Assembly (NCBI GenBank): GCA_000442125.1
Contig: KE546972.1
Coordinates: 124,001 to 188,000, forward strand
Direction: 5' to 3'
Source of the DNA: Opeltia flavorubescens
Taxonomy: Eukaryota; Ascomycota; Lecanoromycetes; Teloschistales; Teloschistaceae
DNA: 64,000 bases
A program made the translations under genes and the position numbers. The notes beneath the pieces were generated by a model, which did not search any database, had not been told where the DNA came from, and was given only the letters and a program-made list of their open reading frames with translations. Position 1 is the first letter of the stretch; each line of letters opens with the position of its first letter. Of this stretch, positions 7,496-64,000 are shown piece after piece.

Positions 7496-8122
7496 CTCCG
7501 AAGAGAAATGAGTCATGAATAACCCTCCGGGTTCGGGATGGTGATCTCACGAGATACGACTCGACGACATTGTACATTTTGATCATTTTCATCCTGCGTA
7601 ACCTTAATGAGTTGAGGAAGAATCGGGAATTGGACTAACGAGTCGTATAATATGCCAAGAAATGAAAATTTCCTGTCTCGATTCACATCTTCTTTTCCCC
7701 CCGTTTTGCTTCGCTTTACCCGATTCAGCTGATATATACAGCTGGAAAGTACGTCTAGTACTGCAACATCATGATATCCACTCCCAAATCAGATTTTGCA
7801 ACAGACTTCCCCCCCCCATACTGATCTTGGGTGAAAAGGGAAAAAAGGAACAAGTACGAAAAAGGAGGAAGTACAAAAGTTCGATCAACTCAAACGGTAG
7901 AGTTTCCTCAATCGAATTTCCTCCCCCCCCCAAACCTCCAAATGTCTCCATCCATACATCTTCCAATTGCCTCCCATTCTTCCCACACAACACAACCCCA
8001 CAAAAAGTGACACCTTCAAGGAAACATCCCTTTTCGCCTCCACCTGCCCCCTAACCCCCTTCCCCCCCCNNNNNNNNNNNNNNNNNNNNNNNNNNNNNNN
8101 NNNNNNNNNNNNNNNNNNNCAA
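7496..8122. other. Intergenic with 50-N assembly gap
   Basis: C- and A-rich low-complexity sequence with several poly-C runs leads into Ns at 8070-8119. The poly-C tract at the gap edge probably stopped the assembly. No coding sequence is seen. Confidence 0.7.
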
Positions 8123-14547: not shown

Positions 14548-17140
14548 TCATTCAATGAGCCTATCTCCAACGAGATTCCTCCTCTTAGTAACAGTGCCAT
14601 CATTATGGGGAATCAATTCCTCCGTATCGACAGCGCTACTATCACCATGCCCAAATCGTTTGATATTCTTCAAGCGCTTTAATTCTTCCATAAATACCTC
14701 TTCATAATCGAATCCACAAATTTCCAAGGCATGTATCCATTCTTTTCCCCACCCCATCTTAGCCGCAATCATTGTCGGAGAACAGCCTTCAGAGGTCACA
14801 GCAAACACATCTGCGCCCCCATAAAGAATAAGTATGGCTGCCAGATCGACCACGTCTCTAGAAGACTCGGCAGACCATTTTCTCAAGCTGAAGAGGAGGT
14901 GCAATGCCGGAACACCATATCTAGGTTCTCTGAACGAGGCATCGGCTCCGAAAAGACATAGCATGAAGACAGCATTGGTAAGTACCAATGTGCGTTGCTT
15001 ATCACAGGGATCAGCGAGATGTGACATCACAAACATCAAAATGGTATGCCCGTCATCAGTAGTTTGCTCTGTATCTAGGCCTTGATCGCGCAAGGATTCT
15101 GCCCAACGTAGAAGTGAGACGGGAGGATTTTGCCAGATACGGATGTCGAGCCAATATTGAGCTTGATCACTACTGGTCACAGGCCAGAATCGGTCCCAGG
15201 AAGGTATCACCAAGCTTTCATTCAAATTACATCCGCTGCGGATCAAGATTCGCGTGACAAGTTCGAAACCAAACTCCCCAGACTGGTCCGTGCAATACGT
15301 TTCGAATGCTCCGATATATGCTGTTACAAGGGGACTACATCGCGAGCTAGAAGATCAAGTAAGTCATCAGATGACTATTAGTTGGGGCAGGCATTCGTAC
15401 TCTGTAGTCGCTGTAGGGTCGGCACCCTCGGCTAGAAGATACTCACACATGTCTGGAAGACCATGGTAGGAGGCGTACTGAAACATGGTCACTCATTTAC
15501 GTGGCTGTAACACAAACACCACACTTACGTGTAACAATGTATCCGATTCCTCAGTACGGTCTGTTGGAGCAGCTAACCCAATTTTGAAGAGTGTCTGGAG
15601 ACCAGCAATATCATTCTCACACACACACCTAAATACTTCGGCGCTCCGTGGAATAACCGCGAATGTTGAAAGGAATGGGCGCATTTCGTAGTAACCACGT
15701 TGATCTTGTCTGCTTTCGCACTTTAAGGAGATACCTCGAGCTATGAAGAGACCAGGCGCTGCTTGAAAGTCCATTGACACGTGGTAGGCATACCTTGCTG
15801 ACGAAGACACAGGCGATTCAAATGCTTGGACTTCGATCCGCTTCTTGGATGATTTGAAGTAAAAGGCGGAGATATGGACCATAAGAACGCCAACTCGCCA
15901 GTGGAATTTCCAGGTCCGACTCCACAATCGGCTCCACTGTTGGGAATTGCTTGGAAGACTACGGAATCTGGGTCCAATGATATTGGAAGACTCGTCGTGG
16001 GGAGAATTGAATGCATTTCGGGGAAGAGACGTGCCCTCGTAGGGCTCTGATTCCAAGATATTGACTGCAGGAACTTGGCTACCTTTTTCGTGGCCATCGT
16101 GTACTGCATGGTCCAGTTCCGAAGCGATCCGATTGAGGGTCTTGCTGATCCCTTTCAGCTGCGCTTCGTGGCTAGACTTATAAGGATCTAGGATTTGTTC
16201 GACAGGAGGCATGACAAGGCCATTGAGTTCTGCTCGTAGTACTTGTCTAAGGGTATCAAGTGATAGTCCTGCGAGGAAGGTTCTTGATTGCTGATGTCCT
16301 TCATTCACTCCTATCGCGGTAAACAGGTCATTCATACGATCCATAGCCTTGGAATGGTTTTCAGTCACAATTCTTGCTGATGTATGGATAGATTGGAGCA
16401 TAATCGCTTGATCCGAGAGTTCTCTGGACACTTCTCGAGCAGCTTCAGCCATCTGGTTCATTGTAGCCTCTACTTTCCTTAGCTGGCTGTCAGTAGACAG
16501 CTGGTTCTGTTGCAATTCGCCTCGGATGTTCGAGGTTTGTTCGTAGATCTTGAGCCCATTTCTCCTAAGATCAAATTACGTCAGATCTCGTTGTGCAACA
16601 CGATATGCTGAGGAGCGAGTTGAGTGTTTTGGGAGACGAAGGATTCACATGCAGGCTCCACGACCGCGTAAATGCAGCTTGAGCATAGTAAGAAAACCAT
16701 CAATCTACTTACTGTGCTGTCACCTGAAGGCAAGCCATGACGGTCATTTGCCGTCTGTCCAACCTGTCACTAATTTCACGTGTTTTCTTCTTATCGAATA
16801 CCCATTTGAAGCGGCGATCCAGCTTTCTTTCGCTACCTGCCGATGGTAGCGATTTTTCCAATAGCCCTAAGTCCGAGCTGATGTCCCTGAGTTCATTGCC
16901 GACAGCCGTAGGTAGTATTTGATGTTGCTCGATACACAAGTTTGATGATTCGTGCTCGAGTACGTACAAACGTAGGGTTCTAAGCAGGGACTCTTGATTT
17001 TGCACGGTCTGTCCAAGGCGCTGTATAGCTTTAGGGGCATCTTTCCAAGTATCAATGACAGCATAAATTCCTTTGCAAGCACGGATCGCGACATCCACAA
17101 AGGATACCACGGCGGCAACGGTTGTAAAGGGATCGGCCAT
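14548..17140 (-). CDS. STAND-type N-terminal domain protein with ankyrin repeats
   Basis: Four exons on the minus strand: 17140-16713, 16564-15529, 15477-15401, 15346-14548; 779 residues. Residues 1-130 (MADPFTTVAAVVSFVDVAIR...) form the helical domain that starts many fungal STAND/NLR-like and HET-related proteins. A coiled linker follows (ATMNQMAEAAREVSREL), then an aromatic beta-like block (WKFHWRVGVLMVHISAFYF). From about residue 480 ankyrin-like units appear: LLHYASYHGLPDMCEYLLAEGA, split by an intron, then GHTILMFVMSHL, FGADASFREPRYGVPALHLL and GGADVFAVTSEGCSPTMIAA. No P-loop NTPase (NACHT or NB-ARC) lies between the two ends. Such proteins are thought to act in non-self recognition or signalling; the role of this one is unknown. 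The start at 17140 gives the canonical MADPF; an in-frame upstream CTG-type start is less likely. Confidence 0.8.
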
Positions 17141-18321
17141 ATCGACTCGGATAATGCAACAAGGTTTAAAGGAAAGTGAAATCAAGAGTAGACCTAGAAG
17201 AAGCGTGGAATCGGTCTAATACTCGATTGAGGCTGTGTCTTTTCTGGCAAGGCTGAGAATGGGGATTTCATGCAGTTGACGAGGTCAACATGTTGACTTG
17301 TCAAGCTTCGGAGGATGCAAGATCCCGTACTGGTAATACCCGAGCTAAGTGAGCTTACCATGCGCTACCATACTCACGCTCATCCGCTGTACGCCCTTCG
17401 TACTGTGAATATTGTACTACTTCATTGGCTTGCAAATGCTCTATTTGACCGTCAATTCATGCACAGCCACTCTGGGGCCTTCTAGGCTTTTGCTCAATCG
17501 TGCATCTTCGTTGAGGACTTCAATGAAATAGAGGATAATCGGCAGCCTAAAGAGTTTATACTTCCAATCCATTCGCCTCAACAGTATCATCAGCAGGTGG
17601 ACTTCATTCATCCCAAGCGGCATCGGCCTCCACGCGATTTTGACATATATACCATATTTGTACCCTGTATCACGTGCCTCGACCTTTGCTTACCATCTAG
17701 GTTCATCAATTCAAATGACGTACTGAGATGAATATATTGAACCTAATGTAACTCTTTCAGCAGCCTGGGTATTCCTTCGATTCTGTTCACTGCATGACAC
17801 ATGCAAGAGACCACCGCAAACTTTTGGCGCGTCAGTTTAGCCAGGGTTTCTTAAATCAACGGCTTCAATCTCGCAACATCTACTGGCCAACAGCTTGAAT
17901 TTCAGTTGTATCGAAACAAAACACAAGCCTACATAGTTCCGACTTGGCTGAAAGGCACAGCAGATAACGTGAAAATGAAAAGAGGAATCAAAATATCGGG
18001 ATGTTGTTTCCGGTCCAGTAAGCTTGGCACACTCAAATCGCTCAGGCTTAACCCTAATTACATGTGTTTCCTAAAATCGTTTTATAGCCAGGGAAGAGAT
18101 AGCTTTGAATATCGCTGATATGGAGGATGAGATGGTAATTCCTTCAGCTATTATCGAGGCCAAAATGACCGCACTTATGTCCTCTCTTCGAAAAATAATG
18201 GCGTGAATTCAACAAACATACCCTCGCAAAAACAGGAAGCGCAAAAGTTCCTTAGAATTTCCTTTGTTGGAGGACGGGAAGTGTCAAGCATAGACGAATT
18301 CAAAAAACAAGACCAAATACC
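17141..18321. other. Intergenic, 1.2 kb
   Basis: The left edge is the probable promoter of the ankyrin gene. The rest is A/T-rich with only short chance ORFs. I see no repeat or RNA gene before the tRNA terminator. Confidence 0.5.
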
Positions 18322-18326
18322 AAAAA
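18322..18326 (-). terminator. Pol III terminator of tRNA-Phe
   Basis: Five Ts on the minus strand, two bases after the discriminator A73, are a standard RNA polymerase III stop. A second six-T run follows at 18302-18307. Confidence 0.85.
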
Positions 18327-18339
18327 TATGGGACGAACC

Positions 18340-18350
18340 GGGCTTGAACC
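18340..18350 (-). promoter_or_regulatory. Internal box B of tRNA-Phe
   Basis: GGTTCAAGCCC matches the TFIIIC box B consensus GGTTCRANYCC exactly. Confidence 0.85.
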
Positions 18351-18364
18351 GGTGACCTTTAGAT

Positions 18365-18383
18365 TGTAGATGACAGAAGTTGG
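18365..18383 (-). other. Canonical tRNA intron (19 nt) after position 37
   Basis: It lies directly after G37 and before A38. It includes CTTC, complementary to the anticodon-loop GAAG, which would form the anticodon-intron helix recognised by tRNA splicing endonuclease. Confidence 0.88.
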
Positions 18384-18395
18384 CTTCAGTCTAAC

Positions 18396-18446
18396 CTGCG
18401 ATTTGTTAGATGATGATCGAAATTGATCTGGAGCGTGGAAACATAC
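18396..18446 (-). other. Spliceosomal-like intron inside tRNA-Phe, between positions 25 and 26
   Basis: On the minus strand the 51-nt piece begins GTATGT, has CTAAC with the branch A ten nt from the end, and finishes CGCAG. All three match fungal U2-type intron signals, and the length equals that of introns in neighbouring protein genes. The boundary is ambiguous by one G, because a G follows the AG. The piece holds CGCTCCAG (18435-18428), which can pair with the D-arm sequence CTGGGAGCG with one bulged G. Confidence 0.7.
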
Positions 18447-18452
18447 GCGCTC

Positions 18453-18464
18453 CCAGCTGCGCCA
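18453..18464 (-). promoter_or_regulatory. Internal box A of tRNA-Phe
   Basis: TGGCGCAGCTGG (positions 8-19) matches the Pol III box A consensus TRGYNNARNNGG. The extra insertion lies 6 nt downstream and adds 51 nt to the A-B spacing. Confidence 0.85.
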
Positions 18465-18495
18465 TCGCCCCGATATAATTTGAATGCAGGTAGGC

Positions 18496-18507
18496 TTAAA
18501 TATATTA
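18496..18507 (-). promoter_or_regulatory. TATA-like element upstream of tRNA-Phe
   Basis: TAATATATTTAA lies 25-36 bp before the mature 5' end, where TATA-like boxes sit in several fungal tRNA genes. The placement is suggestive only. Confidence 0.4.
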
Positions 18508-18971: not shown

Positions 18972-21707
18972 TCAAGCTTTAACGATATTCAAAACCCTTA
19001 CATAGTTGCCCGGGAACAAGCCCGATCTTCCAGCGTAACATCCCACAAACCAATCACCATTGATATTTTCAACCTCATGGATCTCAGCGCCTTTGGGGAA
19101 TGAAAGCTCATCCTGTGCTTCATCACGGGGTAAGTAAGTCCAAAGTGCAAGCACGCGCATACCGGTACCTCCACTAGGTGGGTATTTTCGAAGGAGCAGA
19201 CCTGCGTTTGGTCCGGCATCTTGACTTTCATTGACACCTGAGACTTGCTTCGATACCGTCCGCACGTGTCGTTGCTGGCCATCCTGCCAGCTCCATTCTT
19301 GCTCCATATTTGGCTCTGCACTGTTGCCATCATTCTTAAGCCCGTGACCGCCGACCAGGTCTTTGACAATGACTCTCCTCTGCCCAGCTGGAGAGTCTTC
19401 GAACCCGACAACTATCATGCGATGTCCGCTGGGGCACCTTCTCCATCCTTTGTCGCCATTGTCGACACTAATGCGGCCGTCGCTGATGAGTTTCAGGTAC
19501 GAGTTTGTGCATATATTGAAGTCGCCATCGTTGCATTGCGGGCAATGGAACCGTGTGCTTGAAGGTGGAATAGGGTATTCACAGATGCTACATTTGGTGC
19601 TCAGGGATAGAGGCGCATACTGATCAGCGGGTGACAGGCCAATAAAGAGAGGGCTGGATAGCGAATGATGCTCCGGCACAGGAATGAAGGATGTGACTTT
19701 ACTTGAATTGAAGGATTCCGACGTAGCAGCGTTGGCCAATGATCCGTGGATAACGGGTAATAAAGGATGAGAGCAACATCTACCTTGATTAACACAACGG
19801 TTACAGAAACCCCATTCGCCCTCATTGCAGCTACCACACTTCCAGAAACATTGATTGGCGAATTCGAAGCAACTAGCGCAGAAAGCGCCAGACCGCAAGC
19901 GTGAGCTTGGGTTCTGGTTGACTATCTTCAGCCCTGTCTCAGAACGCCGCGACACGATTGCACTCGGCTCCGGGCGTTCGTATTGCTGGCCAACAAGATT
20001 GTGAGGAAGTGAGGGATCCTTCTGTTTAGACACGTTCTTGGCATCCCGCTGGTATCTTTGTAGAGCTGCGTAACCAAAACCATACCAATGAAGACATCCT
20101 CGGCTCATTCTGTAGCATTGTAAACACAGGTTGTAGTTTCCGTCGAGGCATCTGGAACAATTGTAGTGCAGATCATATTCGATGTTTTCTCTGTTACATC
20201 GATTGCAGCCGATTGATGGTTCCGTGTAATGCTCAAGGGTTGGAGCTGGGACGTGTTCTCGTGTGGAAGGCGAGTCCAGAGGTCCACGGGGCGTTGGAGG
20301 ATTGCTCCCACGTTCTGAAACCATTTGGTGATTAACGCCATTGACACTAACCGGGTCTGAAGCTCGAGATGGTAGAAGAGGTCTTTGTTGGGGTTGGGCT
20401 GCCACAGATCTCGTAGGAGTCTCAGACTCAGCTTCTCCTCTTGATCTATCTCTACGGCGTTGATCTGAATTGGTAGCCCTCCGGTTTCGATTGCTGAGTT
20501 CGGCGGGCTGAGGGCGAAGAGATGGGCTTGGGTGGGCCCCTGTCAAGTCAGTAGCCGACCGAGCAGCCTGGTGACTCGCAGAAGGTGATCTACCAGCAGA
20601 GGATCGTGGTGAGGGTGACGTCTGCCTTCTCTGCTCGCTTGATGCCCTTCGTTGCTGGCCATGGCCGGTTGGGTACGCTTCTAGAAGACGTGGTCTTGAT
20701 ACAGGTGGGCGTGATGGATGGTGCGATTGTTCTGTAGTGCCGATTGAACGATTGGAACGATTACTTGATGGTTCACGAGATCTCCTACGAGACTGGTCTT
20801 GTGGGCGCCTGGTTTGCTCATCATCCGCGGCCCCAGCTCTTGACCTATGTCCATGACGTCTTCGGTAAGCGTCAGCTATTCGTTCGCTCAATGCATCTAC
20901 CTGGGATGTATCGAGAGAATCCAGGTCAATTCCGTCGAGCCATCCTTCATCAACCAGTCGGAGTATCTCCTCTTCCATTTCCGAGGAGCCGATTTCAGAA
21001 TTGCTCATGAGTGATCTCAAACTAGATTGGTGACCTATTGATCGATGTGTACCCCCTCCAGGACTTGCTTGATGACTCGTCTCCGCATGCTGACGCCTTC
21101 TCGTCTGTCTATCATTGTCGCTGGTGTCTCGTCGGTGCCCAGCTGTTCGGTGCCTCGTACCTCGTTCGTATGATCCTGGTGCCCGGCCGTCCATATCGCG
21201 CAAACTCATCTCTCGAACCTCGGCAAGCATCCTTTCATCCTCCAAGTCTCGCTCCTGAACGACAACCTTCGGTAGAACCTGGTCTCCAGGTATGTACTTG
21301 CGCTTCAGCTCCTCCTTCTCTTCTTCGACTTTTCTTCTTTGAGGATTTGCTTGGAGGTACATATCCAGTAGGGTTGTTACCGTGGCATTGGGCCTGGTCT
21401 CCCGCACTGAAGCTCGGCATGACGGGCAAGTGTATGGGTTTGACTGGGAACTCGAAGCTTGAGTAGCTTGCCATGAAAACCATTCTTTTAGGCATGATCC
21501 GCAAAAGGTGTGCAAGCAGTCCAGAAGAGTCAGGGGTTGGTAGAGAATTTCTGTGCAGATCTGCCTTGCGGGTGCCAGGTTAGCTCGAATGCAAAATCAT
21601 ACCAGTACTAGAAACAATGACAGCAATCTGAGCAAGAGGATCTCACTTACAGAGCAGGTCAATTCCCTTTCAAGGTCCAATAACCCAGCTGCCCCCCCGG
21701 CTGCCAT
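18972..21707 (-). CDS. RING finger - triple ZZ-like zinc finger - SH3 protein (probable E3 ubiquitin ligase)
   Basis: Two exons on the minus strand, 21707-21651 and 21560-18972; 881 residues. The 19-codon first exon ends LTCS and exon 2 continues ICTEILYQPLTLLDCLHTFC, so the intron splits a C3HC4 RING (Cys18, Cys21, CLHTFCGSC, then YTCPSCRA). A coiled segment follows (VEEEKEELKRKY), then about 300 disordered residues rich in Arg, Ser and Pro. Three Cys-rich ZZ-like modules come next at about residues 468-515 (CNRCNRENIEYDLHYNC), 577-620 (CASCFEFANQCFWKCGSC) and 676-735 (CSICEYPIPPSSTRFHCPQC). Residues 818-875 form an SH3 domain (RVLALWTYLPRDEAQDELSF ... GLFPGNYV). It may be an E3 ligase that recognises partners by ZZ and SH3; the substrate is unknown. 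It shares a 223-bp divergent promoter region with the CLC gene. Confidence 0.88.
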
Positions 21708-34900: not shown

Positions 34901-36597
34901 ATGGCAATGTCAGGCCAGCCAGGTTATTGGATATGGGATGAACGACATCAAGACTATTATCACGCCAGATTTAACACTGGCACTGGTGAGGCGTTCCGCT
35001 ATGCGTCTCCTAATACTTGCATAGGACCATATTGATGAGCCGCAGGTAAATACGACTACGAATGGAGACGCAATTCAGCGTGCGCATCCACAACCTTACA
35101 ATCACATTTCAACCCCTGACCTAGTCTTGACAGCGCTCCACGTACAGCATCCGTGCCAGGAGCGTCTAATCCCACTTATCCAGCACCGGGACAAAATCCG
35201 CCTCCGCAACCGCCACCCCAACCTGTCGATCCCTATGGAGCAGCGTCCCAGAACACCAATCTGTCGCGCAACTACGCTTATTCACAATCCCATCGAGGAA
35301 CAGATCTTGGTTCATTGACTCGCGACTTTGGAAATCTTACTACAACTGCCGGATATGGAGCCTACTCGCCCTCCGTTACAGCTCCCCCAAGGGCGCCCTC
35401 ACTCGCCCAAGGTATTCCCGTTCACGACCTAGCAACAGGGCTTTGGTTGAGTGACACTAACCGGATACCCCATTCTTAGCACCTATCAGTCCTTATTCCA
35501 CTAGCTACCAGCATACACGATGTATGTGGGACTGAAGACCCTCTTTACTGCTTGCTGACAGGGGAGCCAATACAGCCGTGGGCGGCTCAAACTCGTCAAG
35601 CCTGTACCCTGATCCGAGAGTCAGAGGTTATTCTATGAGCAATGCCCATACGCCTCACCTAGCTTCCTCTGGCACCCGAGCAGGTTCAGGTTTGGCAAAG
35701 AACGGATGAGGTTGAAGATGTGCTAAAGTCATAGTAGAATACGGAACATCACCCGCATCGAATGCTATTGATCCCATGCCTCCCTTTAGCTCTGAAATAC
35801 GACCGAGCACACAGTATAGCAGCAGACATGGGAGTTCACTCGATGCTCAAACTTCAAGTGCATCTTACCAGGACAGCCGCATTCCTGGGAGCACGCTGAC
35901 CATCCCCAAACACCCGGGAAGATTAGACCCAGGTAGGGCATCTCCATTGGATGCTGAGTCTACACGTATTGACAATCCGAAGAGGATTTCTTTGTTCGGA
36001 ATAAGCCGCACAGGTTCTTCGTGGAAGGCAAGGTGAGATTAAATTAACGGAGCAATTGGCCCTTCATATACTGAGCTCGGTATAGGTTTTCATCAAGCTT
36101 CATACTGAAGATGCTGGCAACGCAGCGGACTCCAGCTCTTTCGGGTTCTCTACGGTCGCATACGCGGAGTTAGCGTACTCTCAATTACGTCGCTTTGTGG
36201 TAGTGAAATCGAGGCCGAAAGAATTCTACTCTCTGTGCATGTGAGTATTTGAATAGACTAACGTCTCTGAATCACAGACTGACTTCTGAACACTAGTCCT
36301 ATATTGACGTACAGAGGTCAAGGTGCTGCCAAGAAAGGAGTAGATCAAAGTGCCCACACGATCATCTACACGGGTAGTCGGCCACCAAGTAAACAGGCGA
36401 ACGAGCATGGGATGAAGAAAGCCCCTCTGCGTGTCATACCATCCAAACCCGAAGAAAAACTCGATCCTATGTCAAGAGTAAACCTCGGAAAGACTTATAC
36501 TGTTGAGTGGAATACCAAGGTCAAGGAAATTGGGGACGTCGATCATAAAGATCTGGTGAATATGAAGGCGTACTGGAAACAACTTCTGGGCGGTTGA
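34901..36597 (+). CDS. DUF6590-family protein
   Basis: Nine small exons can be joined in frame: 34901-34985, 35046-35079, 35134-35411, 35480-35521, 35567-35683, 35738-35932, 35983-36032, 36086-36240, 36297-36597; 418 residues. The start GQPGYWIWDERHQDYY is typical for fungal DUF6590 proteins, followed by a Pro/Gln/Ser-rich, disordered middle. The domain itself begins DFFVRNKPHRFFVEGKVFI, continues LRRFVVVKSRPKEFYSLCIP, TYRGQGAAKKG and HTIIYTGSRPP, and ends KLDPMSRVNLGKTYTVEWN, GDVDHKDLVNMKAYW. No function is known for the family. The exon 6-7 join is chosen because it restores this domain; a plain read-through ends in the wrong frame. A second in-frame Met at 34907 is also a possible start. 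Confidence 0.78.
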
Positions 36598-42754: not shown

Positions 42755-43540
42755 ATCACACACGACAACAGCTTCTCTACGAGGATTCTACTGCGGTATC
42801 TTCGGAAGAGAGGCTGAACAATTCGAAGACGTCTTTCCCCTTGTTGTTCCTGCTGGTTCATGGGCATTCAAACGTACGATAGAGGCGAGAACGGGTCAGA
42901 TTTTGCATTGTTGAAGAATGAGCAGCATTTGTTTTCTACATTCGCTTGAAAAAGGGCGACTGGCTTTCAGCGTCTGACTGCACAGTGGGAGGCATTTTGT
43001 CAAATTTTCTTGCGAACTTTGAGTTCTTGAAATTTCTTGCATGTTTTTTTTTTGCTACGACTCAGCCTTGGTGTTGGTGGGCATGTTTGAGACTCCGGGT
43101 ATGCCCCCGAGATGTCCGATGTATGGATAGACAGTGTGTTGTGGATCAGAATCCAAAGTGTAGATTTAGACGAGGACCAATGATATTCCGATGATTAGGA
43201 GATTCAAATTACCTTTTCTTTTTCTGCTTCCGCTTCGCCTGCTTGTATCTTGCGTGATTTATTTCGATGAAGCTTGCATTTGCTTCTTTGGGACGATCGG
43301 GGGCTGAGTTAATAGCGAGCAGGCGCTGATGGGTATGATGGTGGTCTTGATATTGGAGCGGCTAATAGCGGGGGGTTTTCGGCTATCTGAAATGAATTGC
43401 CGAGGATGCGTCATCGACGGCGTCTATTTGGCCAGCGTGGGGAAATGGGGTTACCAAAGCTGTCTCGAAGCTTGCAACAGGATATTGCAGCTTGAGTCAT
43501 TCCTCGGTAGATCTTGAAGTCAAGCTATCGCCAGCTTCAT
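42755..43540. other. Intergenic
   Basis: No coding sequence recognised. T-rich tracts on the plus strand probably contain the 3' UTR of the precursor gene. Confidence 0.5.
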
Positions 43541-45415
43541 ATGCCCAAGAAGAGAAATCGCGTTCCTTTCAATAAACCACAGACATCAGCGCATCCTTCC
43601 ATATCCCGCTCCCAAGCCAACCGCCACAATGACTCCCTCCGCAACGATGACTCCCACAAATCAGTCAACGACCTGTTACAACATCTCCGCTTCAGCCAGG
43701 CGCCGCCAGTGGTACCTGTTGAATCCAGATCAGACGTGAACCCACAAACCGTGCATCCTTCGCTGAAACATATTCTTCAAATACCAGACACTCCACCCCC
43801 AAGGCCAAGACCCGGCATGCGTCCCTTTGGGGTTCATGCAAGAAGAAGACCACCGGGTCCACCGCCTCCGAGAAGCTGGTTAGCCGACAATCATTATGCA
43901 CCCAGTCATATCAAGAAAGGATCACTTCAACACAGCCGCGACTTTAATCAACGCCCCAATCTCGAAACGCTACGTCCGTTGCCTGATACCAATCTCCCAG
44001 AGAAGCGAACCCTCCAGCATCAGACTTTGCTTCAATTAGCCAAGAACTGGGATTTCCACGTTCAGTACGATCAATACTACCTCGCTACCCTCTCCGTGCG
44101 GCACAAGCAGATCCTCCTCACCTACATCGCCAGATACAGTCCCAACGGTATCGATCTCAATGGCCTCAACATCCTCTTCCTCGATGAATCCCAACTCGCC
44201 AGCGCAACCGGCACAGAAGGTCTCACCCACCTCGATCTCTCAGGCTCTATCGGCCGCTCCCTCCCTCTCAAAGATCTAAAACATTTCCTCACCAGCAAAA
44301 CCACACAACCTCCGACTCAAAACTCCTCCTCAATCCCCGACACCTGGGACTCCACTCCCTCCAACGACCCCAGTGTCCACTCCCTTACCCCCAACCTCAC
44401 CACCACCACCATCTCAACCCTAACACACCTCTCCCTCTCCCACCCTCCACCAACCACCTCCTGGCGCGTCCTCCTATCCCTAACCCCCCACCTCCCAACC
44501 CTAACACACCTCTCCCTCTCCCACCCTCCACCAACCACCTCCTGGCGCGTCCTCCTATCCCTAACCCCCCACCTCCCAACCCTAACACACCTCTCCCTCG
44601 CCTCCTGGCCCCCTCCCTCCCTAACTCCCAACGCAAAAACCGCATACCTATCCACCCCCGCAGGGAATATATCCTACGGCACCTCAACCCTCTACTCCCA
44701 CACCCTCGATCAGGATTTCTCCGCCGCAGCAGCGGTCCTCCGGCAACTCAGCCGCAGAACTTATTGTCTGCAGTATCTCGATTTGACGGGCTGTACGGAC
44801 TGGATCCCTGCGCTTGGGGTAAGGGATGGGGGGATAGAGTGGGAAGGGGCGTGGAGCGGTATGCGCACTGTGAGGGTGGGGCAGGGGTGGATACCTGCCA
44901 TCCTGAAGGAAGATCAATCCCACGACGATGACGATGATGATTACGAATTCAAAAAGTCAAATACCTCATCATGGAAAGCTCTCCTACTCGTAAATTCCCA
45001 GCTCCTCGCCCCAGCGCAGAGAACAGAGTGCCTACAGCTAAAGCGATGGGCGGAGACGGAATGTAAAATCAGTGATGTCTGCTGGAGGGTTAGGAGTGGG
45101 AGGGCGAGGGCGACTGTGGCACCGGCGACACAGCAGCGGGACCCTGGACATGGGCGGGAGGAAGACGAGAGACGCAGGATGAGGACGCAGCGGCGGCAGG
45201 AACAAGAGGGAAATGGCGATGACGAAGGCGGTGGTGGCATTGGATGGGGCGGTGATAGGGCGCGAAGTGTTGCTAGGAGGGAGACGAAGAGTAACAAGGA
45301 GAAGGAGAAGGGCAGGGGCCCAATCTGCAAAGTTGCCTTCGACCGAGGATGGGAAGGGTGGTGGATTGACGATTTTCTAAAGTGGTATCGGGAGCACCTT
45401 AGGCTTTCTTCATGA
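43541..45415 (+). CDS. Leucine-rich-repeat-like protein, basic N-terminus, unknown function
   Basis: One exon, 624 residues from MPKKRNRVPFNKPQTS; no other ATG lies nearby in frame. The N-terminal 150 residues are Pro- and basic-rich. From about residue 165 the fold seems helical (QTLLQLAKNWDFHVQYDQYY), then leucine-rich-repeat-like strands come: LTHLDLSGSIGRSL, LTHLSLSHPPPTTSWRVLLS (twice, exact), LTHLSLASWPPP and LQYLDLTGCTDWIPAL. An 81-bp unit is repeated in tandem (about 44420-44581), so the 27-residue repeat was doubled recently. The end is Arg-rich and charged, then GWEGWWIDDFLKWYREHL. It appears to be a conserved fungal protein, but its role is unknown to me. Confidence 0.75.
   Translation: MPKKRNRVPFNKPQTSAHPSISRSQANRHNDSLRNDDSHKSVNDLLQHLRFSQAPPVVPVESRSDVNPQTVHPSLKHILQIPDTPPPRPRPGMRPFGVHARRRPPGPPPPRSWLADNHYAPSHIKKGSLQHSRDFNQRPNLETLRPLPDTNLPEKRTLQHQTLLQLAKNWDFHVQYDQYYLATLSVRHKQILLTYIARYSPNGIDLNGLNILFLDESQLASATGTEGLTHLDLSGSIGRSLPLKDLKHFLTSKTTQPPTQNSSSIPDTWDSTPSNDPSVHSLTPNLTTTTISTLTHLSLSHPPPTTSWRVLLSLTPHLPTLTHLSLSHPPPTTSWRVLLSLTPHLPTLTHLSLASWPPPSLTPNAKTAYLSTPAGNISYGTSTLYSHTLDQDFSAAAAVLRQLSRRTYCLQYLDLTGCTDWIPALGVRDGGIEWEGAWSGMRTVRVGQGWIPAILKEDQSHDDDDDDYEFKKSNTSSWKALLLVNSQLLAPAQRTECLQLKRWAETECKISDVCWRVRSGRARATVAPATQQRDPGHGREEDERRRMRTQRRQEQEGNGDDEGGGGIGWGGDRARSVARRETKSNKEKEKGRGPICKVAFDRGWEGWWIDDFLKWYREHLRLSS
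44420..44581 (+). repeat. 81-bp perfect tandem duplication in the LRR gene
   Basis: Two identical neighbouring 81-bp units code for the same 27 residues (start LTHLSLSHPP, end LTPHLPT). Identity at silent sites points to a young duplication or ongoing copy correction. Confidence 0.85.
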
Positions 45416-54547: not shown

Positions 54548-57500
54548 CTACAGCTCATCTTTGATCTTGTCTGTTGCCTTCGCCGCCATACTGCTGACGC
54601 TGCTCGCTGCATCTTCGATCCCACTCTGTGCCGCCTCCACACCAGCCTGAGCATCCTTTGGTAAAGCTGCGAGCCTCGCTTTCGCGCTCTCAATCACCTC
54701 TTGCAACCTTGAAGACGCGCTTTCCACTGCACCCTTTTCCGGGCCGTAGATAGCCTCGCTGACCTTTGCTTGTGCCGCTTGCATTGCTGAAGTGGCTGCC
54801 TCCATGTTCTCTTGCACAGCAGACGAGACCGAGGCGTAGGCGCTATTGACAACACTAGTCGCGGAATCTGTGACGGCGGTCGAGCCGTATATTGCTTGAG
54901 AGATAGCGTTCTGTGCCGAGCTTGCCACCTGCTCAAACGACGACTGCAATTCTTCTGCATATCCTGGTCGGGTACCGTAGACAGCTTCACTGGCTTTGGC
55001 GGAGGCGGCAGAGTATGAGCTTGCCGCTGCTGACGTAGCTTGCTCATATGTGCCTTTACTAGATCCATAATATTGCTGGCTTGCCGCATCTACAGCTGCG
55101 TTGACTTGATCGCTTGCGGCTTGGAGAATCGCCTCGAGACTTGCCGGTGGAGTGAAGACGGTTGAGACAACAGACGACGCCGAAGCGTAAGTATCTTTGA
55201 CGTAGCTCGAAGCTGAAGCAGCCGCGCTAGCATGAGCACCTGTGTAGTAAGCAGAGCTGAGCCGGTTCATCACACTCTCTGTGAAGTCTGGTTCCCTACC
55301 AGAAACCAATTCCTTAAATAGACCTTGCACAGCTTCGTATTGAGCAAAAGCACCATCAGTAGCTTGAGCAGCATATTCACCAGCTTGCGCCATAACCGAC
55401 TCTGACCATGGCGTTGGGGCACCATAGACTTGTTCACTGGCCTTGGAAACCAAAGCTTCCCAATTTTGCGATGCCTGACTGGCGACAGATGCGGTCCAGG
55501 GAGTTTCGCCGGCCACTTGTGAGCTCGCAACAGACGAGATGGAAGCTGCTTTCTCCGACAAAGCTGAGGTCATCGATTCAACGAAACCTGTCTCACTGCC
55601 ATAGATAGCGGTACTGGCAGCGGCGGATGCTGACGAGAGTGACGCCGAGGCTGCGACCAAGGCCATGCTGTAAGAAGAAGACGCTGAATCGAGAACACTC
55701 TGAGCGGGCGACTTGCTCGTCTTGCCCACTGCTGAACTGGCCGATCCCATGACGGCTTCGAGATTTTCAGAGGCCTTGGCGATCGCGGCGCTGTATTGAG
55801 CCTGAGCCTTATCAAGCAAGGTTTGGTATCCTGGAGCTGGAGTACCCAAAACCGACGCCGATGCAGCGCTGTACATGCCTTGATAGGCTGGAGTTGGCGT
55901 GCCATATACGGCACCCGATGCAGCGTTCAAGAAGTCCGAATAACGCTCATGAGCTAGCCCAACAGCTTCATAGTATCTTCGCTGTCCTTCTTGAAGATAT
56001 TGTTGATGGGCTGGAGTCGGCGTGGCACCAAAGCTGGCCTTGATGTTAGAGTACTGTGCCGAGGCAGAGCTAATGCTATCCGCCAATCTAGACGAAGCGA
56101 CAGCTGAGATAGACTCCAAAACACCTTGGCTAGGACCGTAGTAGACTTCACTGACAGCCTTTGTTGCAGATGCACGTTGCGAATCTGCGGCATTAACAAG
56201 GCTTGAGTAACGCTGGCTTGCCTCCGAGAGGAAAGACTCATAGCCTGCCGTCGAGGTCTTTCCCATGACACTCTTTGCAGACTCGAGTTGTGAAGAAGCA
56301 ACAGCCATCGCCTCGGAATATTTCGCGTTTGCAAGGGAGAGAGCTGATTGTTGAGGGCTTGCGCTTGATCCATAAGCTGTTACGGACGCTGCGCTGACTA
56401 TCGAAGCCATCTTTTCACTCGCAGCTTTCACCGAATCTGCATAAGCACTCTCGATGGAGGAAAAGATTGCTTCAGATGCAGGCTTTGGGGTACCAGAGAT
56501 CTTCGCTGAAGCGACAGATTTAGCCTGCAGGTATTGCTCGTATGCTTGTTTAGATGCTTCCGCATAAACAGAAGATGCTCGAGCCGCAGCTGATTCAGTT
56601 ACAGGGGCCGGTGTCCCAAATATTGCAGAAGACGCCCTGGATTCTATCAGTGCACGTTTCGTTACGTAGGGCACTAGTAATACTCACGCAGCAACAGCAT
56701 CAGAATATTTGTCCACGGCAACATTTGTCATACTTTCAACAACACCTTGTTCCGTTCCGTATAGAGCTTTGGAGGCTGCCGCTAAAGCCTTGGAATATTG
56801 TTCATTTGCAACGGAAGTCACGCTCTCCGCTGTTCCCTGAGTGCTAGAAGCCTTGAGCAAAGCTTCACTCACAGCCCGCGTTATATCAGCGTATCGTCCG
56901 CCGGCTTCCTCTACCATGCTTTGCATCTTTTCTGAGTAGGTGGCGTCCTCGTCAACAAGGTCATCCAAGATAGGTTTTTGTTCCCCAACAGCTTGTGCTA
57001 AGGCGCCGCCATAAACCTTCTTTGAGGCTGCACTCGCCATAGAAGACGCACTCTCAGATATGGGGGTCGAAAATTTGGGTATTGCTTGAGATGCCATGGA
57101 TGATACCGAAGATACAGATCTTGACATTTCAGAAGCAATGGACTCATGGGCTGGTTTTTGAGTGGCCCCGAAAGCTTTATTGGCTTGGTCAGACACCTGC
57201 TGAGCTTTGTCCTTAGCTGCAGCAACGATACTGTCAATATTGGGTTGAGCACTGGCCTCGGCCAGCCTGGAGTTGGCTTGCTCCAGGTATCCAGGTTCTG
57301 TTCCTGCAACAACCGAAGAGGCGCTCGAGGCAACTCCGGCTGCTGCTCCAGAAGCTTTCTCTAGTACTTTCTGGCCCTGCTTTGCAGCCGCAGGTGGAAT
57401 GATCCTTGTAGTGAAATCATCTGAAGCGTCTGCGCTCTGAATCTTCCAAGTCCCAACTTGTTTTAATCTGCGAAGCTCCTGTGCTGTATCTTCGGCGACA

Positions 57501-59182
57501 GCCATACCCTTTGATTCAATTTCCATGGCAGCGTCTGACGCCCTTTGCAGACCTTCGTGTTCAGTTGCAACTGCTTCCACTTCCTCTCGCCATTCGGCAA
57601 ATATCTCCTTGGCGGAATGATATCTTGACCAGTCTTTGTACGTAACGCCCTCCATCCAAGCCCACCGCATACCAATTTCTTGAAGCCCGAGATCTCGAAT
57701 GTTATCCATCACTTCGAGGGTGGACTGAGACGCGGCAGATACCAATGATCGTGTTTCACTATCATAGTTTTGCTTCCAATCTCTTATAGCCTGAGCCTTG
57801 TCCTTAACATTTAGGCCGGCCTGCTTTGTGGCTTTTGAAAGGTTTTCATTAGCGTTGGTATACTCGTCGGACGTCGGCTCCTCAGGCAGCGCTTTGACAA
57901 CCTGCACTATGGTATTCTTCAATTTCCGAACCTCAGACTTGGCAGCTTCCTCTAGCTGAATGAACAATGCCTCACCAACACCGCTGACTTGTTTCTGAAT
58001 CTGGCGATTGGCAATTTCCTTTACCCTTTGCTCAAGGTCTTCACTACCTTTATCCGCGGCTTTTGCGAAATTTTCCTGCCAATTCTTCAAATCATCTTCG
58101 ATTTTTTGACGGACTTCCTCACTATCCTGCTCCGACTTCACAGATGCTGTACCAGTGTCCTCTGCGACCGCCGTACTACTTTGTTCAGAAGTTCCGCTGA
58201 CCACGGCCGTAGAAACAGATGAGGACATCGATGTAAGGCTTGATGATGCGGAGGTCAAGCTTGAAGTTGCGTTGATATCTTCAAGAGCGGCCTTGAGTTT
58301 TTTGCCATCCCGGTAACGACCCAGTCGCTCTCCAATCCTAAAAAGTTGTGGCTCAACGTTCTTGCCGTATAGCACTCGCAGCTGCGGCCAGACGGTTCTA
58401 TCGAAAAGTACCACGGTAGACGTCCATGCAGACCTGGCGTATGGCAGAGCCGTATCCAATGTGAATTGCCGGGCGCCAGAGTAAGTTTTTTCTATGTATG
58501 GCTGGGAAGTGGCATACGCCGGCAAAAGCTGTGAGTTATAAATGTACAATGTACTGTCCCGGCCTTTCTGATAGTAAGGTTCGACCATGGTCCAAGCTTG
58601 ATCCACAAAGGGTGCACCGTGGGTGTCATACTGGACCCTGGCCTGTGTCCGAGCATTATCCAACGCTGGTCGTACGGTTCCTTCCCATTGAGACTGGCCA
58701 TACTCGCTCGCTTTACGGACTCGAGGAGCACCGTAGTGCTCATAGCCTTGTCTGCCGTACTTAATTGCAGGGGTATAGACATTATGCTCAATCTTGTCCA
58801 CGTACGGTCGGACCACGCCGACGTAAGGAGCAGCATAAGCATCGTAGTATGGCCCCACAAAGGGATCGATATAGGACCTCGTAGTCAAATAGGGTCTACA
58901 TACCCTGGGAGAGTCGTTGGTCACATCCGTGACTGAGGGAGGGCAGCGGAAGAGGGCGGTTATAATCGAATACCAGAGTAGAAGCCTAGAGCACTGTTAA
59001 TAAGGGTTTAACAACTTTCATCTAGAAAGTGCAACATACCTTGTAAAGAGACCAAGCACGCGCTTTGTAAGGTTGGTCGGTGGAGTTGTGGCCAGCGGCT
59101 TTCTTGAATGGGATATGTGACCATTAGGTCGTCCATTGGCTTTCACTGGATCCACCGGTCTTCCATTTGTTTGTACAGCCAT
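54548..59182 (-). CDS. Large Ala/Ser repeat membrane-anchored protein (annotated in fungi as hoxa13-like)
   Basis: Three exons on the minus strand, 59182-59040, 58985-56688, 56636-54548; 1509 residues. The N-terminus (MAVQTNGRPVDPVKANGRPN) is followed by TKRVLGLFTRLLLWYSIITA, a probable membrane segment at about 40-60. Residues 80-240 hold Tyr/Pro repeats (RSYIDPFVGPYYDAYAAPYV, YGAPRVRKASEYGQSQWEG). A coiled-coil part comes next (KIEDDLKNWQENFAKAADKG). From about residue 640 to the end dozens of degenerate 30-40 residue units run, each with a motif like ASxAVYGTPTP and an Ala/Ser-rich amphipathic helix (AQYSAAIAKASENLEAVMGS). Fungal homologs are named after hoxa13 in databases, but no homeodomain is present. 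The repeats resemble lipid-surface helices (perilipin/apolipoprotein style), which is inference. Confidence 0.85.
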
Positions 59183-60031
59183 GATTGGTCTATGCGGAGA
59201 GGGTGCTGCAAATCGAATGGTGGAAGACAAATTCGACAGCAATTCCGGGAAGACTGAAGATAATTGTCGTTGCAGTCCTCTGCTGCCGACCACGAGCAAA
59301 TCCGACCAGACACAGTTCAGCTGAGGTATGATAGCGGAAGCGTGAAATGGGCGGGTGCTGCAACTGGAAGTTTCGTTGAAGAGGGTTGTGGTCCGCGGCT
59401 CGCAGGACGCAGGTTGTCACTTGCAACTAAACTTGCATAAAATCCAAGATGCCTATGAGGTAATGCGTCATGGTCGTGTGCCCCTGTAAACACGTAAAGG
59501 AGGTCGCTAATTAAGCACTGGCGATAATCTGCATGTTGAAATAAAATTTCTTCTACACTATTTTCGTACGTTCGAATTCGTACCTTCACAGCCAGTCATC
59601 TCGTTTTCCAAGATCGGAGGATAAATGATCATGCTCGATCCTTGCAAGTACGGAGTAGGCGGACCTCGGGAAGTCGTGTCGACGTTGTGCCAAGCCTGTA
59701 AGTCCTAGCGGTTTGCTTCTGGCTGACTAATGCAGGAAGCTGTCGACATTGTTGTTCATCTATCATAAAGTACATTGCTCTTGCCCGATCATTGTACGCA
59801 TCACCGAGACATCTTTGGAGCGGCCGTAGCAATCAATTCCTCAAAATTGTGTTTATGAGATTCGAAATTTGAACCTGACAGCTCATCACTGAATGGGGTT
59901 GACATCTACACTTACGTTCTTCACTATGTTATACTAATCAACATTTCCTCAGAGACGGCTGCGATGAATTTCAACCGTCAACTCCATCTTGACCTTGCAA
60001 AGCGGGAGACCGAGCTCCATATCCGGCGGCC
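59183..60031. promoter_or_regulatory. 849-bp divergent intergenic region, repeat-protein and DOA10 genes
   Basis: Both genes read outwards from this spacer. No conserved coding sequence is seen and no obvious operator repeats. Confidence 0.4.
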
Positions 60032-63000
60032 ATGGACCAGTCGCTTGCCCCAACAAATAATCCGGATATCATGACCGATTCTTCATTCGATGGTGCCCGG
60101 CAGGGCGAGCGGAGAAAGAGTTTGGAAGAACCAGATACATGTCGAATATGCCGCGCTGAGGCATCTGAAGAAGAGCCACTCTTTTACCCATGCAAGTGCA
60201 GTGGCAGCATCAAATTTGTACATCAAAATTGCCTCATGGAATGGCTGTCCCACTCCCAGAAAAAGCACTGCGAACTTTGCAAGACGCCTTTCCGATTCAC
60301 AAAGCTTTACCATCCTCACATGCCTACTACCGTGCCTCCTCTCGTGTTCCTACGCCAAGCCGTCATCCACACATGGAAATCGTTAGTAGCCTGGTCGCGC
60401 ATGCAGCTCGTCCTCTTTGTCTGGCTTGGTTGGCTCCCTTGGTCCATGAGGACTGTGTGGAGGGGCATGTTCTGGATCGGAGATGGAGGCTGGTTCGACT
60501 GGAGACGCATGGAACAAGAAGCTTTGAAGCTGGCTAGAGAACGTTTGGACAAGCTTGCTGCCGAAGGAACGTCACCTGCTCCTCCCAAGTCTTTCTTTTC
60601 CCTTAGTGGACGAGACACAGCTTCTCTCGTTGTGTCTCGGATAGCAGAGGCTCTTCCGCAAATGGTTTCCCGGACACTCAACCTTCCAGGAGGCCAGCCG
60701 GTCGTTTTCAGACTTGCAAGGGATCTACTGAGAAAATTGACTTTTCCGAAGCGCATGAATGAAACAGCAGACCTACCACATATTCCTTCCATCGATCCAG
60801 ATTATAGTCCCGGCATGCCTTATCGGTCCTCGTGGCTATCGGATATTCGGTTCCTACGAACATTGACTCGATATCCTATCGTGAACAGTATCGTCATCAA
60901 CACCTTGGAGGGTCAGCTCATCACTCTGTCCATCGTCGTTGCATTCATCCTCGTTTTCCTCATCCGCGAATGGGTCGTGCAACAACGACCGATGATAAAC
61001 ATACGAGCAGGCCCTGAGGCCCAGGTAGCGCTGCCAGCCATTCAAGACGTCAATCACCAGGAGGAAGTGGTCGCCGAAGCCGGTGATAATGTCCGACAGG
61101 AGCCAAACGAACCGGTTGAAGACTCGCAGAACGGGAATGGTGAGCAAATGCCACCGACCTTGGAACCAGATCCCCCGCAGCAACGAGATGATATTGACAA
61201 CTCAGGATCTGATCATGATTCTACCGGAGCTAATGTCGCTTTGGAAATCGGTCACGAGATACAAGAGACCCTTGATGCACCGAATGATTCATCAACCACA
61301 GAACAATCAGCACCGTTTCAACATAGACCTAGCATGCCCGATAGGGGTACTTTAGCTAGGGCCGCGGAAATCAGGCGCACCATTGAAGAGCAGTCTCGTG
61401 CTACTGGACAGGACTGGCCAGGGCTCAAGATTTTCATGGATTTGTGGCATCGTGCCGGTAATAGACCCAACGAGGTTCTAAGGATTATTGAAGAGGAGGG
61501 ACGGAGTGAAGAGCTTGGCTGGGTCATAGCAGCTATGGGACGGTTAGAGAATATTCCAATTTCTGCAAGAGATCAAACTTATCAAGAGAAATATTCCGGG
61601 GAAGGGCATTCCAATGGCGTTCCATCCGATAGTGACGGAGACGTACAAAATACCGAAGCTGTTGAATCGGACCTGGCTCGGCGCATCTATGGATCTGATT
61701 TTGATTTTACTAACGCAATGGGGTCAAATGATAGTCTTGATAGCGTGTCAAATACTGCGCAAGGCGGATCTCCAGGACTGACTGACCGGAAACGGGAAGC
61801 TCGCCCGATCAATACAAATGAGCCCCCATTTCCTACTGCAGGGACTCCTAGAGCAACAGAAGCAGAAGACACTGGCGGGAGTGACCAGTCTTTCGATCTA
61901 GCACGAGGATCGAACCAGCCAACGCCTGATGTTTCTTCGCACGCTGTCGATAACCCATTCCACGAGGATTATGATGGCCCGCTCCCTCCTCCTCCACAGC
62001 AAATTCATGGTGAAGTGGAGCAGTCCCCGATTAATTTTCTTGAGGATACAAACACGGTTGTTGCGGAGCAAGAGCAGCACCCTGGAGTAACCGATCATCG
62101 GGTCAATTCGTTCCGCTTAGAGCCAAAACAACCTTTCATGGAGAGACTCATGACATGGCTTTGGGGACCAGTGAATCCGGAATCAGCAGAGGCCGGACAG
62201 CATACAGCAGGTGATGATGAACATATTGTGCGAGATTTAGCAAACGAAGCACCCTTCATCCCTATGGAAAATGGGCAGCCATTGATTAATGGAGAGGAGC
62301 AAGAAGACGGGAATAATCGTGATGCACCAGAAGCTGCCCAAGATCCGCAAGTGGCTGAAGCAGCCATTCAGGCAGGGCTTGATCCTAATGAAGCAGAAGC
62401 TGCTGAAGAGGTAGAAGACCTCGAGGGTGTCATGGAGCTCGTTGGCATGCAAGGTCCAATTGCTGGTCTCATCCAAAACGGCATGTTCTGCGCAGTACTC
62501 GTCTCGTTAACAATCCTCGTTGCTATTTGGATACCTTACATCATGGGAAAGCTATTTTTTATCATCCTCGCCAACCCGGTCTCACTCCTGTTGAAAATGC
62601 CGCTTCGATGGGCATCCAGCTCAGCAGACTTGCTTTCCGATGCGTTGATCTTCAGTGTCACTTGCTCATACTACTGGATTGCCATAACGGTGAGCTTTCT
62701 ATGCTCTCCAGCTAGGAAATTCGACTTCATAGCTCGTCTGCTGGACGGAGAAGAAGTACTAGCAGATGTTGCTAAAGCTTACGCTGAGAAATCTCTGGGA
62801 CGCTTGACCGAGGCTTTTACAGGAACAAGTGGCAGTCTATCTGAATCTGACATTCCCACCTTCTCCATCGTCGCTCATGAATCCCTGCAATCCCTACAGC
62901 GACACCTCGCAGCTATCCTCGAATCAATCATGACTTCTGCAATGGCTTTTTGCACCTTAGATCCGAAATCCAACTCTATAAACGCCGGATCATACCAAGA

Positions 63001-64000
63001 CTTTGGCAATTGGCAGGCCTTTCAAGAACTCTTAGCTGTCGTTCCGATGAAGTTGAACTTTCTCTCCAGCATTGCCGTTACATGGCCTCAGAGCGTCACC
63101 ACGTGGCTCCTATCACTTAGACAAGTCAATTTCCTACGGCTAAGTGTGAGCATACCTCAAAGAACGCAGCCGCTGGACTATAAGCTCGCATTCTGGGATT
63201 CGAAAGATCGAGCTATAGCTGTCATATTTGGCTATCTGCTCTTCGCTATCCTTGCGGTCCTCTACCTTCAGCTGAGCCGTGTTTTCCGCAACAAGAGGGA
63301 AGCCAGCAAGGCCGAAGGCGTTTTGGCCGAAGTGCTCTATCAAGCGGGCGGAGTCACGAAAGTCATCCTGATCATCAGCATCGAAATGATCGTATTTCCT
63401 TTGTACTGTGGCTTCTTGCTCGATGTGGCGTTGCTGCCATTATTCCGCGATGTCACCCTCCTGTCACGCCTGGAATTCATGGTCAGCTCCCCCTACACGT
63501 CTCTTTTTGTACACTGGTTTGTGGGCACGTGCTACATGTTCCATTTCGCCCTATTCGTTTCTATGTGCCGCAAGATTATGCGGAGTGGTGTATTATATTT
63601 CATTCGGGATCCTGATGATCCCACTTTCCATCCGGTCCGGGACGTGCTTGAACGGAGCGTCTTTACGCAGTTGGGCAAAATCGCATTTAGTGCATTGGTG
63701 TATGGGGGTCTTGTCATCATCTGTCTCGGTGGCGTCGTATGGGGTATTTCGTCGGCATTCGAAGGCGTTTTCCCGATCCATTGGTCCTCCAACGAACCGG
63801 TTTTGGAATACCCGGTAGATCTTCTTTGCTACAACCTCATCGTGCCGCTTGCAGCCAAATACTTCCGACCTTCAGATGTATTGGGCGAGTTGTATGCTTG
63901 GTGGTTCAAGAAATGTGCGCGGGGCTTGCGACTGTCGCACTTTCTATTTTGGGACAAGAAATCGGATGAGGAAGGACGTCATATCAGGCGTACATGGAAA
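60032..64000 (+). CDS. DOA10: ERAD E3 ubiquitin ligase Doa10 (RING-CH), partial at window end
   Basis: Open from ATG 60032 to the window end without a stop, 1323 codons; the 3' part lies outside. Doa10 sits in the ER and inner nuclear membrane and marks faulty proteins for degradation. The RING-CH finger spans Cys37-Cys83: CRIC, YPCKC, VHQNC and CELC, the C4HC3 order with His64. Then come RFTKLYHPHMP and hydrophobic segments (VAWSRMQLVLFVWLGWLPW, LITLSIVVAFILVFLIREWV). A long acidic and disordered stretch covers about residues 330-800. More membrane helices follow (NGMFCAVLVSLTILVAIW, AIAVIFGYLLFAILAVLYL, IVFPLYCGFLLDVALLPLF), then DPDDPTFHPVRDVLERS and the Doa10-typical YAWWFKKCARGLRLSHFLF at the end. 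A single exon so far. Confidence 0.93.
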   Translation, partial: MDQSLAPTNNPDIMTDSSFDGARQGERRKSLEEPDTCRICRAEASEEEPLFYPCKCSGSIKFVHQNCLMEWLSHSQKKHCELCKTPFRFTKLYHPHMPTTVPPLVFLRQAVIHTWKSLVAWSRMQLVLFVWLGWLPWSMRTVWRGMFWIGDGGWFDWRRMEQEALKLARERLDKLAAEGTSPAPPKSFFSLSGRDTASLVVSRIAEALPQMVSRTLNLPGGQPVVFRLARDLLRKLTFPKRMNETADLPHIPSIDPDYSPGMPYRSSWLSDIRFLRTLTRYPIVNSIVINTLEGQLITLSIVVAFILVFLIREWVVQQRPMINIRAGPEAQVALPAIQDVNHQEEVVAEAGDNVRQEPNEPVEDSQNGNGEQMPPTLEPDPPQQRDDIDNSGSDHDSTGANVALEIGHEIQETLDAPNDSSTTEQSAPFQHRPSMPDRGTLARAAEIRRTIEEQSRATGQDWPGLKIFMDLWHRAGNRPNEVLRIIEEEGRSEELGWVIAAMGRLENIPISARDQTYQEKYSGEGHSNGVPSDSDGDVQNTEAVESDLARRIYGSDFDFTNAMGSNDSLDSVSNTAQGGSPGLTDRKREARPINTNEPPFPTAGTPRATEAEDTGGSDQSFDLARGSNQPTPDVSSHAVDNPFHEDYDGPLPPPPQQIHGEVEQSPINFLEDTNTVVAEQEQHPGVTDHRVNSFRLEPKQPFMERLMTWLWGPVNPESAEAGQHTAGDDEHIVRDLANEAPFIPMENGQPLINGEEQEDGNNRDAPEAAQDPQVAEAAIQAGLDPNEAEAAEEVEDLEGVMELVGMQGPIAGLIQNGMFCAVLVSLTILVAIWIPYIMGKLFFIILANPVSLLLKMPLRWASSSADLLSDALIFSVTCSYYWIAITVSFLCSPARKFDFIARLLDGEEVLADVAKAYAEKSLGRLTEAFTGTSGSLSESDIPTFSIVAHESLQSLQRHLAAILESIMTSAMAFCTLDPKSNSINAGSYQDFGNWQAFQELLAVVPMKLNFLSSIAVTWPQSVTTWLLSLRQVNFLRLSVSIPQRTQPLDYKLAFWDSKDRAIAVIFGYLLFAILAVLYLQLSRVFRNKREASKAEGVLAEVLYQAGGVTKVILIISIEMIVFPLYCGFLLDVALLPLFRDVTLLSRLEFMVSSPYTSLFVHWFVGTCYMFHFALFVSMCRKIMRSGVLYFIRDPDDPTFHPVRDVLERSVFTQLGKIAFSALVYGGLVIICLGGVVWGISSAFEGVFPIHWSSNEPVLEYPVDLLCYNLIVPLAAKYFRPSDVLGELYAWWFKKCARGLRLSHFLFWDKKSDEEGRHIRRTWK

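Follow-up and report, generated by a model that had tools for sequence, protein, structure and literature searches.

Can a tRNA gene carry an intron of the kind that interrupts mRNA genes, in addition to the intron expected of a tRNA? This question is raised by a 143-nt tRNA-Phe(GAA) gene on the minus strand (18471-18329) of the window, that is, the whole 64-kb stretch of DNA analysed here. The gene is laid out as 25 + 51 + 12 + 19 + 36 nt. The initial annotation had described a minus-strand tRNA-Phe(GAA) interrupted twice, by 19 nt of intron at 37/38 and by 51 further nucleotides at 25/26, and the coordinates it gave are exact. The features are as follows.

18329-18471, minus strand: tRNA-Phe(GAA) gene with two intervening sequences (sequence, ARAGORN, two-gap descriptor)
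18447-18471, minus strand: exon 1, tRNA positions 1-25, acceptor 5′ strand and D arm (sequence, descriptor)
18396-18446, minus strand: 51-nt intron of spliceosomal type, between positions 25 and 26 (sequence pattern, neighbouring introns)
18441-18446, minus strand: putative 5′ splice site GTATGT (sequence pattern)
18405-18409, minus strand: branch-point motif CTAAC, with the branch A at 18406, 10 nt from the intron end
18396-18398, minus strand: putative 3′ splice site CAG, the first AG past the branch motif (sequence)
18384-18395, minus strand: exon 2, positions 26-37, including anticodon GAA and G37 (sequence)
18365-18383, minus strand: 19-nt intron at 37/38 (sequence, ARAGORN)
18329-18364, minus strand: exon 3, positions 38-73, T arm, acceptor 3′ strand and A73 (sequence, descriptor)

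Eukaryotic tRNA introns lie as a rule at 37/38, and on this basis we chose the 37/38 register for the 19-nt intron, which retains G37; ARAGORN sets it one base earlier (36/37). Read from the sequence, its CTTC is able to pair with the GAAG of positions 34-37. The 51-nt insert can be placed in two registers because G stands at both of its borders, and one of the two is GT...AG. The succession GTATGT...CTAAC...CAG, with 10 nt from branch to end, had also been claimed for the extra piece and can be read in 18396-18446.

With both pieces left out, a two-gap descriptor finds 21/21 stem pairs (one of them G-T) and 15/15 scored invariants, of which the scan itself requires 7. The cloverleaf had been called flawless once the extra piece is removed; with the 19-nt intron left out as well, this description holds. 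In the descriptor, positions 25 and 37 may each be followed by a free gap. On the 64-kb window the sole gene that it found was 18329-18471 (listed a second time with a gap of 49 nt), and 15 Markov-shuffled versions of the window gave no match. When the 51 nt are removed, ARAGORN reports tRNA-Phe(gaa) and a 19-nt intron (score 111.5); it reaches 119.0 when both the 51-nt and 19-nt pieces are removed, and its default scan of the intact locus, 51 nt in place, calls no tRNA. When 223 intron-like candidates were removed singly, an ARAGORN tRNA call followed for two, the 51-nt insert (Phe) and a candidate that overlaps it and has its acceptor further on (Asp call). Rfam gave no tRNA match on the locus at either the gathering threshold or a lax threshold; two weak plus-strand snoRNA matches at the lax threshold (E 2 and 3.6) were taken as chance.

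Run in its intron-aware mode, ARAGORN makes a sole call on the window, and makes it at two intron limits: a tRNA-Gly(tcc) with a 64-nt intron. The locus would then be a tRNA-Gly(UCC) gene with a single intron at 37/38. However, this reading leaves the anticodon stem with a mismatch and a G-T pair, lacks position 26 and has a variable region of 12 nt, and its score of 105.7 falls below those of the Phe reading with the small intron and without it. Moreover, the call is unspecific: with the insert shuffled, ARAGORN calls some tRNA in 401/500 cases, Phe in 45 and Gly in 12. We regard a tRNA-Gly gene as exceedingly unlikely. Because so many shuffled inserts are also called, ARAGORN calls of any kind are weak evidence by themselves at this locus, and the weight rests on the stricter descriptor.

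To what, then, can the 51-nt insert be compared? The genes around the locus include those for a fungal-specific transcription factor domain protein, a velvet factor, a DEAD-box helicase, a CLC channel and a pyrroline-5-carboxylate reductase, a set that indicates a filamentous fungus as host. Seven introns of the window were hand-picked, five retained from seven inspected candidates and two added from the DEAD-box gene; the candidates at 2205-2256 (52 nt) and 36241-36296 (56 nt) were dropped, being without protein support. A Pfam domain spans the junction in 2/7 (DEAD box and ankyrin), and the remaining five have open-frame support. Their lengths are 51, 51, 56, 54, 49, 53 and 90 nt, and the YTNAY motif nearest to the intron end lies, in the same order, at 10 nt, none, 12, 11, 12, 11 and 19 nt, the nearer motif being quoted for the two introns that have a second, more distant one. 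The branch motif is thus found 10-12 nt from the end in five of the seven.

Several other features of the window were recorded. On the minus strand, 14548-17215 holds successive open frames, perhaps one gene, with a weak PigL_N-like N-terminus (23.2 bits vs Pfam's 27.2) and an ankyrin repeat spanning a 51-nt intron at 15478-15528. Also on the minus strand, two large open frames at 54548-58996 are linked by a likely 51-nt intron (56637-56687), and the product is a long, repetitive Ala/Ser-rich protein with many 'YGTP'-like repeats. On the plus strand, a predicted protein at 43511-45415 has an internal direct repeat, HLSLSHPPPTTSWRVLLSLTPHLPTLT standing twice in tandem, and a 1336-codon open frame (59993-64000) continues past the window end, with a shorter minus-strand frame opposite at 60316-60801. 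A run of 50 N at 8070-8119 is a scaffold gap in the assembly.

The insert shows the features of a U2-type intron: GT...AG borders with the donor GTATGT, a CTAAC branch motif 10 nt from the 3′ end, which is a host-like distance, and a length of 51 nt vs 49-56 nt in six of the seven hand-picked introns. Judged by its length, its donor, its branch motif and the distance from there to the end, it would pass as one of the introns of the neighbouring genes. A spliceosomal intron in a Pol III gene had been proposed at the outset; the anatomy is as claimed and these four properties fit the seven hand-picked introns, so that this much of the proposal stands, and splicing itself keeps the status of a probable reading. 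When both strands of the window are cut into all 127,698 possible 51-nt stretches, the pattern GTRNGT...CTRAC...YAG is found in 1, which is the insert itself, and GT...AG borders are found in 443. Shuffling the insert 300,000 times gave GT...AG borders in 914 cases and the whole pattern in 1. The pattern and the score weights were devised with the observation already known, from the fungal consensus. A length-free form of the pattern (42-130 nt) occurs 14 times in the window against a mean of 15.5 in 20 Markov sequences, which is no excess. Therefore, the pattern alone proves nothing, and it gains its weight for the 51-nt insert because the cloverleaf fixes both ends. The exon base preceding the donor is C, where G is usual, which counts against the spliceosomal reading. 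An introner-like element would have many near-identical copies across the genome; the window holds no second copy of the insert, the best other blastn match being 12 nt long (E 0.23). A 6-nt perfect complement between the insert (CGCTCC) and the D arm was set aside as not meaningful, having been equalled or exceeded in 1352/3000 shuffles.

An intron so like those of mRNA genes might belong to an overlapping Pol II transcript, either the 3′ region of the upstream gene or the 5′ region of the downstream gene, the fit to a tRNA being secondary. The same strand does have open frames nearby, one upstream at a distance of about 0.5 kb (its stop at 18972) and one downstream at about 1.1 kb (beginning at 17215). 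However, removal of the 51 nt restores the tRNA to the base, for which there would be no reason in such an intron, and we find this explanation barely credible. A mixed form, in which splicing also takes place in read-through Pol II transcripts, is possible.

The insert might otherwise be an ectopic tRNA intron that the tRNA splicing endonuclease removes. Cyanidioschyzon and nucleomorphs offer the precedent: introns in the D and T arms are known there, in some genes beside a second intron, the Guillardia nucleomorph tRNA-Phe being an example (sections of PMC4090602). The donor, CTAAC and CAG signals would then have to be coincidence. A bulge-helix-bulge score of 7 for the insert is reached by 6382/20000 shuffled inserts, which is a weak test, as the 37/38 intron used as a control gave 10774/20000. 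Cleavage of the 51 nt by the endonuclease is in our judgement very unlikely.

The signals expected of Pol III transcription and of a tRNA-Phe are also present around and within the gene.

18496-18504, minus strand: TATA-like element TATATTTAA, starting at -33 (sequence)
18453-18464, minus strand: A box TGGCGCAGCTGG, positions 8-19, all within exon 1 (sequence against consensus)
18340-18350, minus strand: B box GGTTCAAGCCC, positions 52-62 (sequence against consensus)
18322-18326, minus strand: TTTTT run, resembling a Pol III terminator, from the third nucleotide past the gene (sequence)

The two boxes are named after what we take to be the A and B box consensus, and the 51-nt insert is located between them. 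From the local intergenic rate, 20 start positions would hold 0.07 TATAWW by chance, and from the local rate of TTTTT-type runs, 20 nt would hold 0.036. TTTT is absent within the 143-nt gene, a weak point given that 5/7 of the hand-picked introns are likewise without TTTT. The elements G20, G34-A35-A36 and A73, presumably the Phe identity set as in yeast, are all present. Neither stems nor invariants nor promoter are decayed, and the intact stems, invariants and promoter boxes and the terminator-like run speak against a decayed pseudogene.

These observations bear on the main rival explanation, that this is a surplus or silenced tRNA-Phe copy: the intron-like piece would sit in one of several genes, the gene being unexpressed or its transcript discarded, with other copies supplying the cell. 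Fungi normally have several tRNA-Phe genes. Moreover, according to sections of Yoshihisa 2014, short D- and T-arm insertions in eukaryotic tRNA genes mostly affect a single gene among many synonymous ones, and such genes are supposed to be pseudogenes (PMC4090602). Against this stand the absence of decay in pairs, invariants, promoter boxes and terminator-like run, and the signals of the insert itself, since a random insertion is not expected to bring a donor, a branch site and an acceptor spaced as they are in the introns nearby. We judge a surplus or silenced copy unlikely. Observed here are the anatomy of the gene, its match to the neighbouring introns and an intact tRNA with its promoter elements. 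We consider it probable that a nuclear Pol III tRNA-Phe(GAA) gene has here acquired a 51-nt spliceosomal intron of U2 type, at 25/26, beside the canonical intron at 37/38.

The sequence suggests that one tRNA may need two splicing machines, the spliceosome and the tRNA endonuclease. For transcription, splice-site use, the order of the steps and the function of the tRNA, we infer the following route. Pol III would transcribe as far as the TTTTT run and yield a precursor of some 150 nt. With U1 bound to GUAUGU and U2 to the branch site CUAAC, the spliceosome would take out the 51 nt. The D and anticodon arms, once joined, would permit the L-shaped fold, from which the tRNA endonuclease would cut the 19-nt intron, and ligase would join the halves. 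The spliceosome is placed first because, in yeast, the folded precursor is probably touched by Sen54 at its D arm and its acceptor stem (sections of PMC3978253), and an insert between the D and anticodon stems should disturb that fold. Folding predictions for the precursor have CTAAC paired with GTTAG of exon 2 (68-78% paired) and give the native D stem a probability of 0; such a pairing, if it forms, could hinder use of the branch site. These predicted folds weigh little, as RNAfold does not obtain the full cloverleaf even for the trimmed tRNA.

Is such a gene already known? Among the matches listed from the open-licence full-text literature, titles and abstract openings report no spliceosomal intron in a tRNA gene, and the sections of PMC4494063 at hand contain no such case. 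The earlier statement that no case had been described agrees with this literature, as far as the parts of the listed matches go. Spliceosomal introns in U6 and rRNA genes are already known. In another paper, the tRNA introns treated in the sections consulted are of archaeal type or group I, and we do not take it to describe such a gene. A 2026 review treats tRNA splicing, in the sections at hand, as independent of the spliceosome (PMC13149111). Related tRNAs were also sought in viral contigs, where two patterns gave 0 matches and a looser pattern gave 88 stretches, in none of which ARAGORN found a tRNA around the match; fungi are outside the scope of that collection, and the result has no bearing on conservation. 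Contigs of prokaryote genomes gave 70 matches on 69 stretches, none of them then followed by GACTGAA, which were taken as chance and likewise have no bearing on fungal conservation. BLAST against phage records gave no match.

Gene finders may share a blind spot for genes of this kind. At this locus ARAGORN calls either nothing or a tRNA-Gly and Rfam no tRNA, so such genes may be missing in annotations. The tRNAscan-SE 2.0 paper states, in the sections consulted, that eukaryotic tRNA genes have no more than one intron (PMC8450103), while Yoshihisa 2014 names exceptions in nucleomorphs and red algae (PMC4090602). It is conceivable, if doubtful, that the intron has become fixed in the tRNA-Phe genes of the lineage, making all Phe decoding dependent on the spliceosome, and that similar introns in other fungal tRNA genes have been overlooked, since tRNA finders do not model them. 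If the spliceosomal reading is true, a pre-tRNA can be a substrate of the nuclear spliceosome, and mRNA and tRNA splicing are workable on one molecule. Intron gain would then reach the Pol III genes of the most conserved class, and the gene would bear on whether splicing needs coupling to Pol II and a cap.

How does the gene compare with known interrupted RNA genes? Those of Cyanidioschyzon merolae and of nucleomorphs resemble it in having interruptions outside 37/38, at times two or three per gene, the Guillardia tRNA-Phe included (sections of PMC4090602). They differ in that the ectopic introns of C. merolae are described as BHB-mediated (sections of PMC3978253), and those of the Guillardia nucleomorph measure 3-24 nt, their mode of splicing being given as not known (sections of PMC4090602). 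The string 'spliceosom' is absent from the main text of PMC4090602. The canonical 37/38 intron is present here as well, at 19 nt, whereas the 51-nt insert sits at 25/26 and is like an mRNA intron.

Fungal U3 is transcribed by Pol II. The abstract of PMC5832005 terms U3 a Pol III gene, and in the sections consulted fungal U3 genes are said to have frequent introns, judged computationally to be normal spliceosomal ones, with direct evidence in two species only. In lichen-forming ascomycetes, spliceosomal introns are found in rDNA, one from Cladonia grayi being 57 bp long, and one lichen rDNA intron is removed from Pol I transcripts by yeast (sections of PMC8527467). In both groups, as in the tRNA-Phe gene, a gene for a non-coding RNA harbours an ectopic intron whose signals are mRNA-like; however, the hosts there are rRNA (Pol I) and U3 and not a tRNA. 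The fission yeast U6 snRNA gene has an mRNA-type intron that is removed in maturation (sections of PMC10484740), and it shares with the present gene, as we read it, a spliceosomal intron within a Pol III transcript. However, U6 is itself a spliceosomal RNA, whose intron is thought to have entered close to the catalytic nucleotides by reverse splicing. No link of this kind exists for a tRNA, and the tRNA-Phe gene described here additionally carries a tRNA intron.
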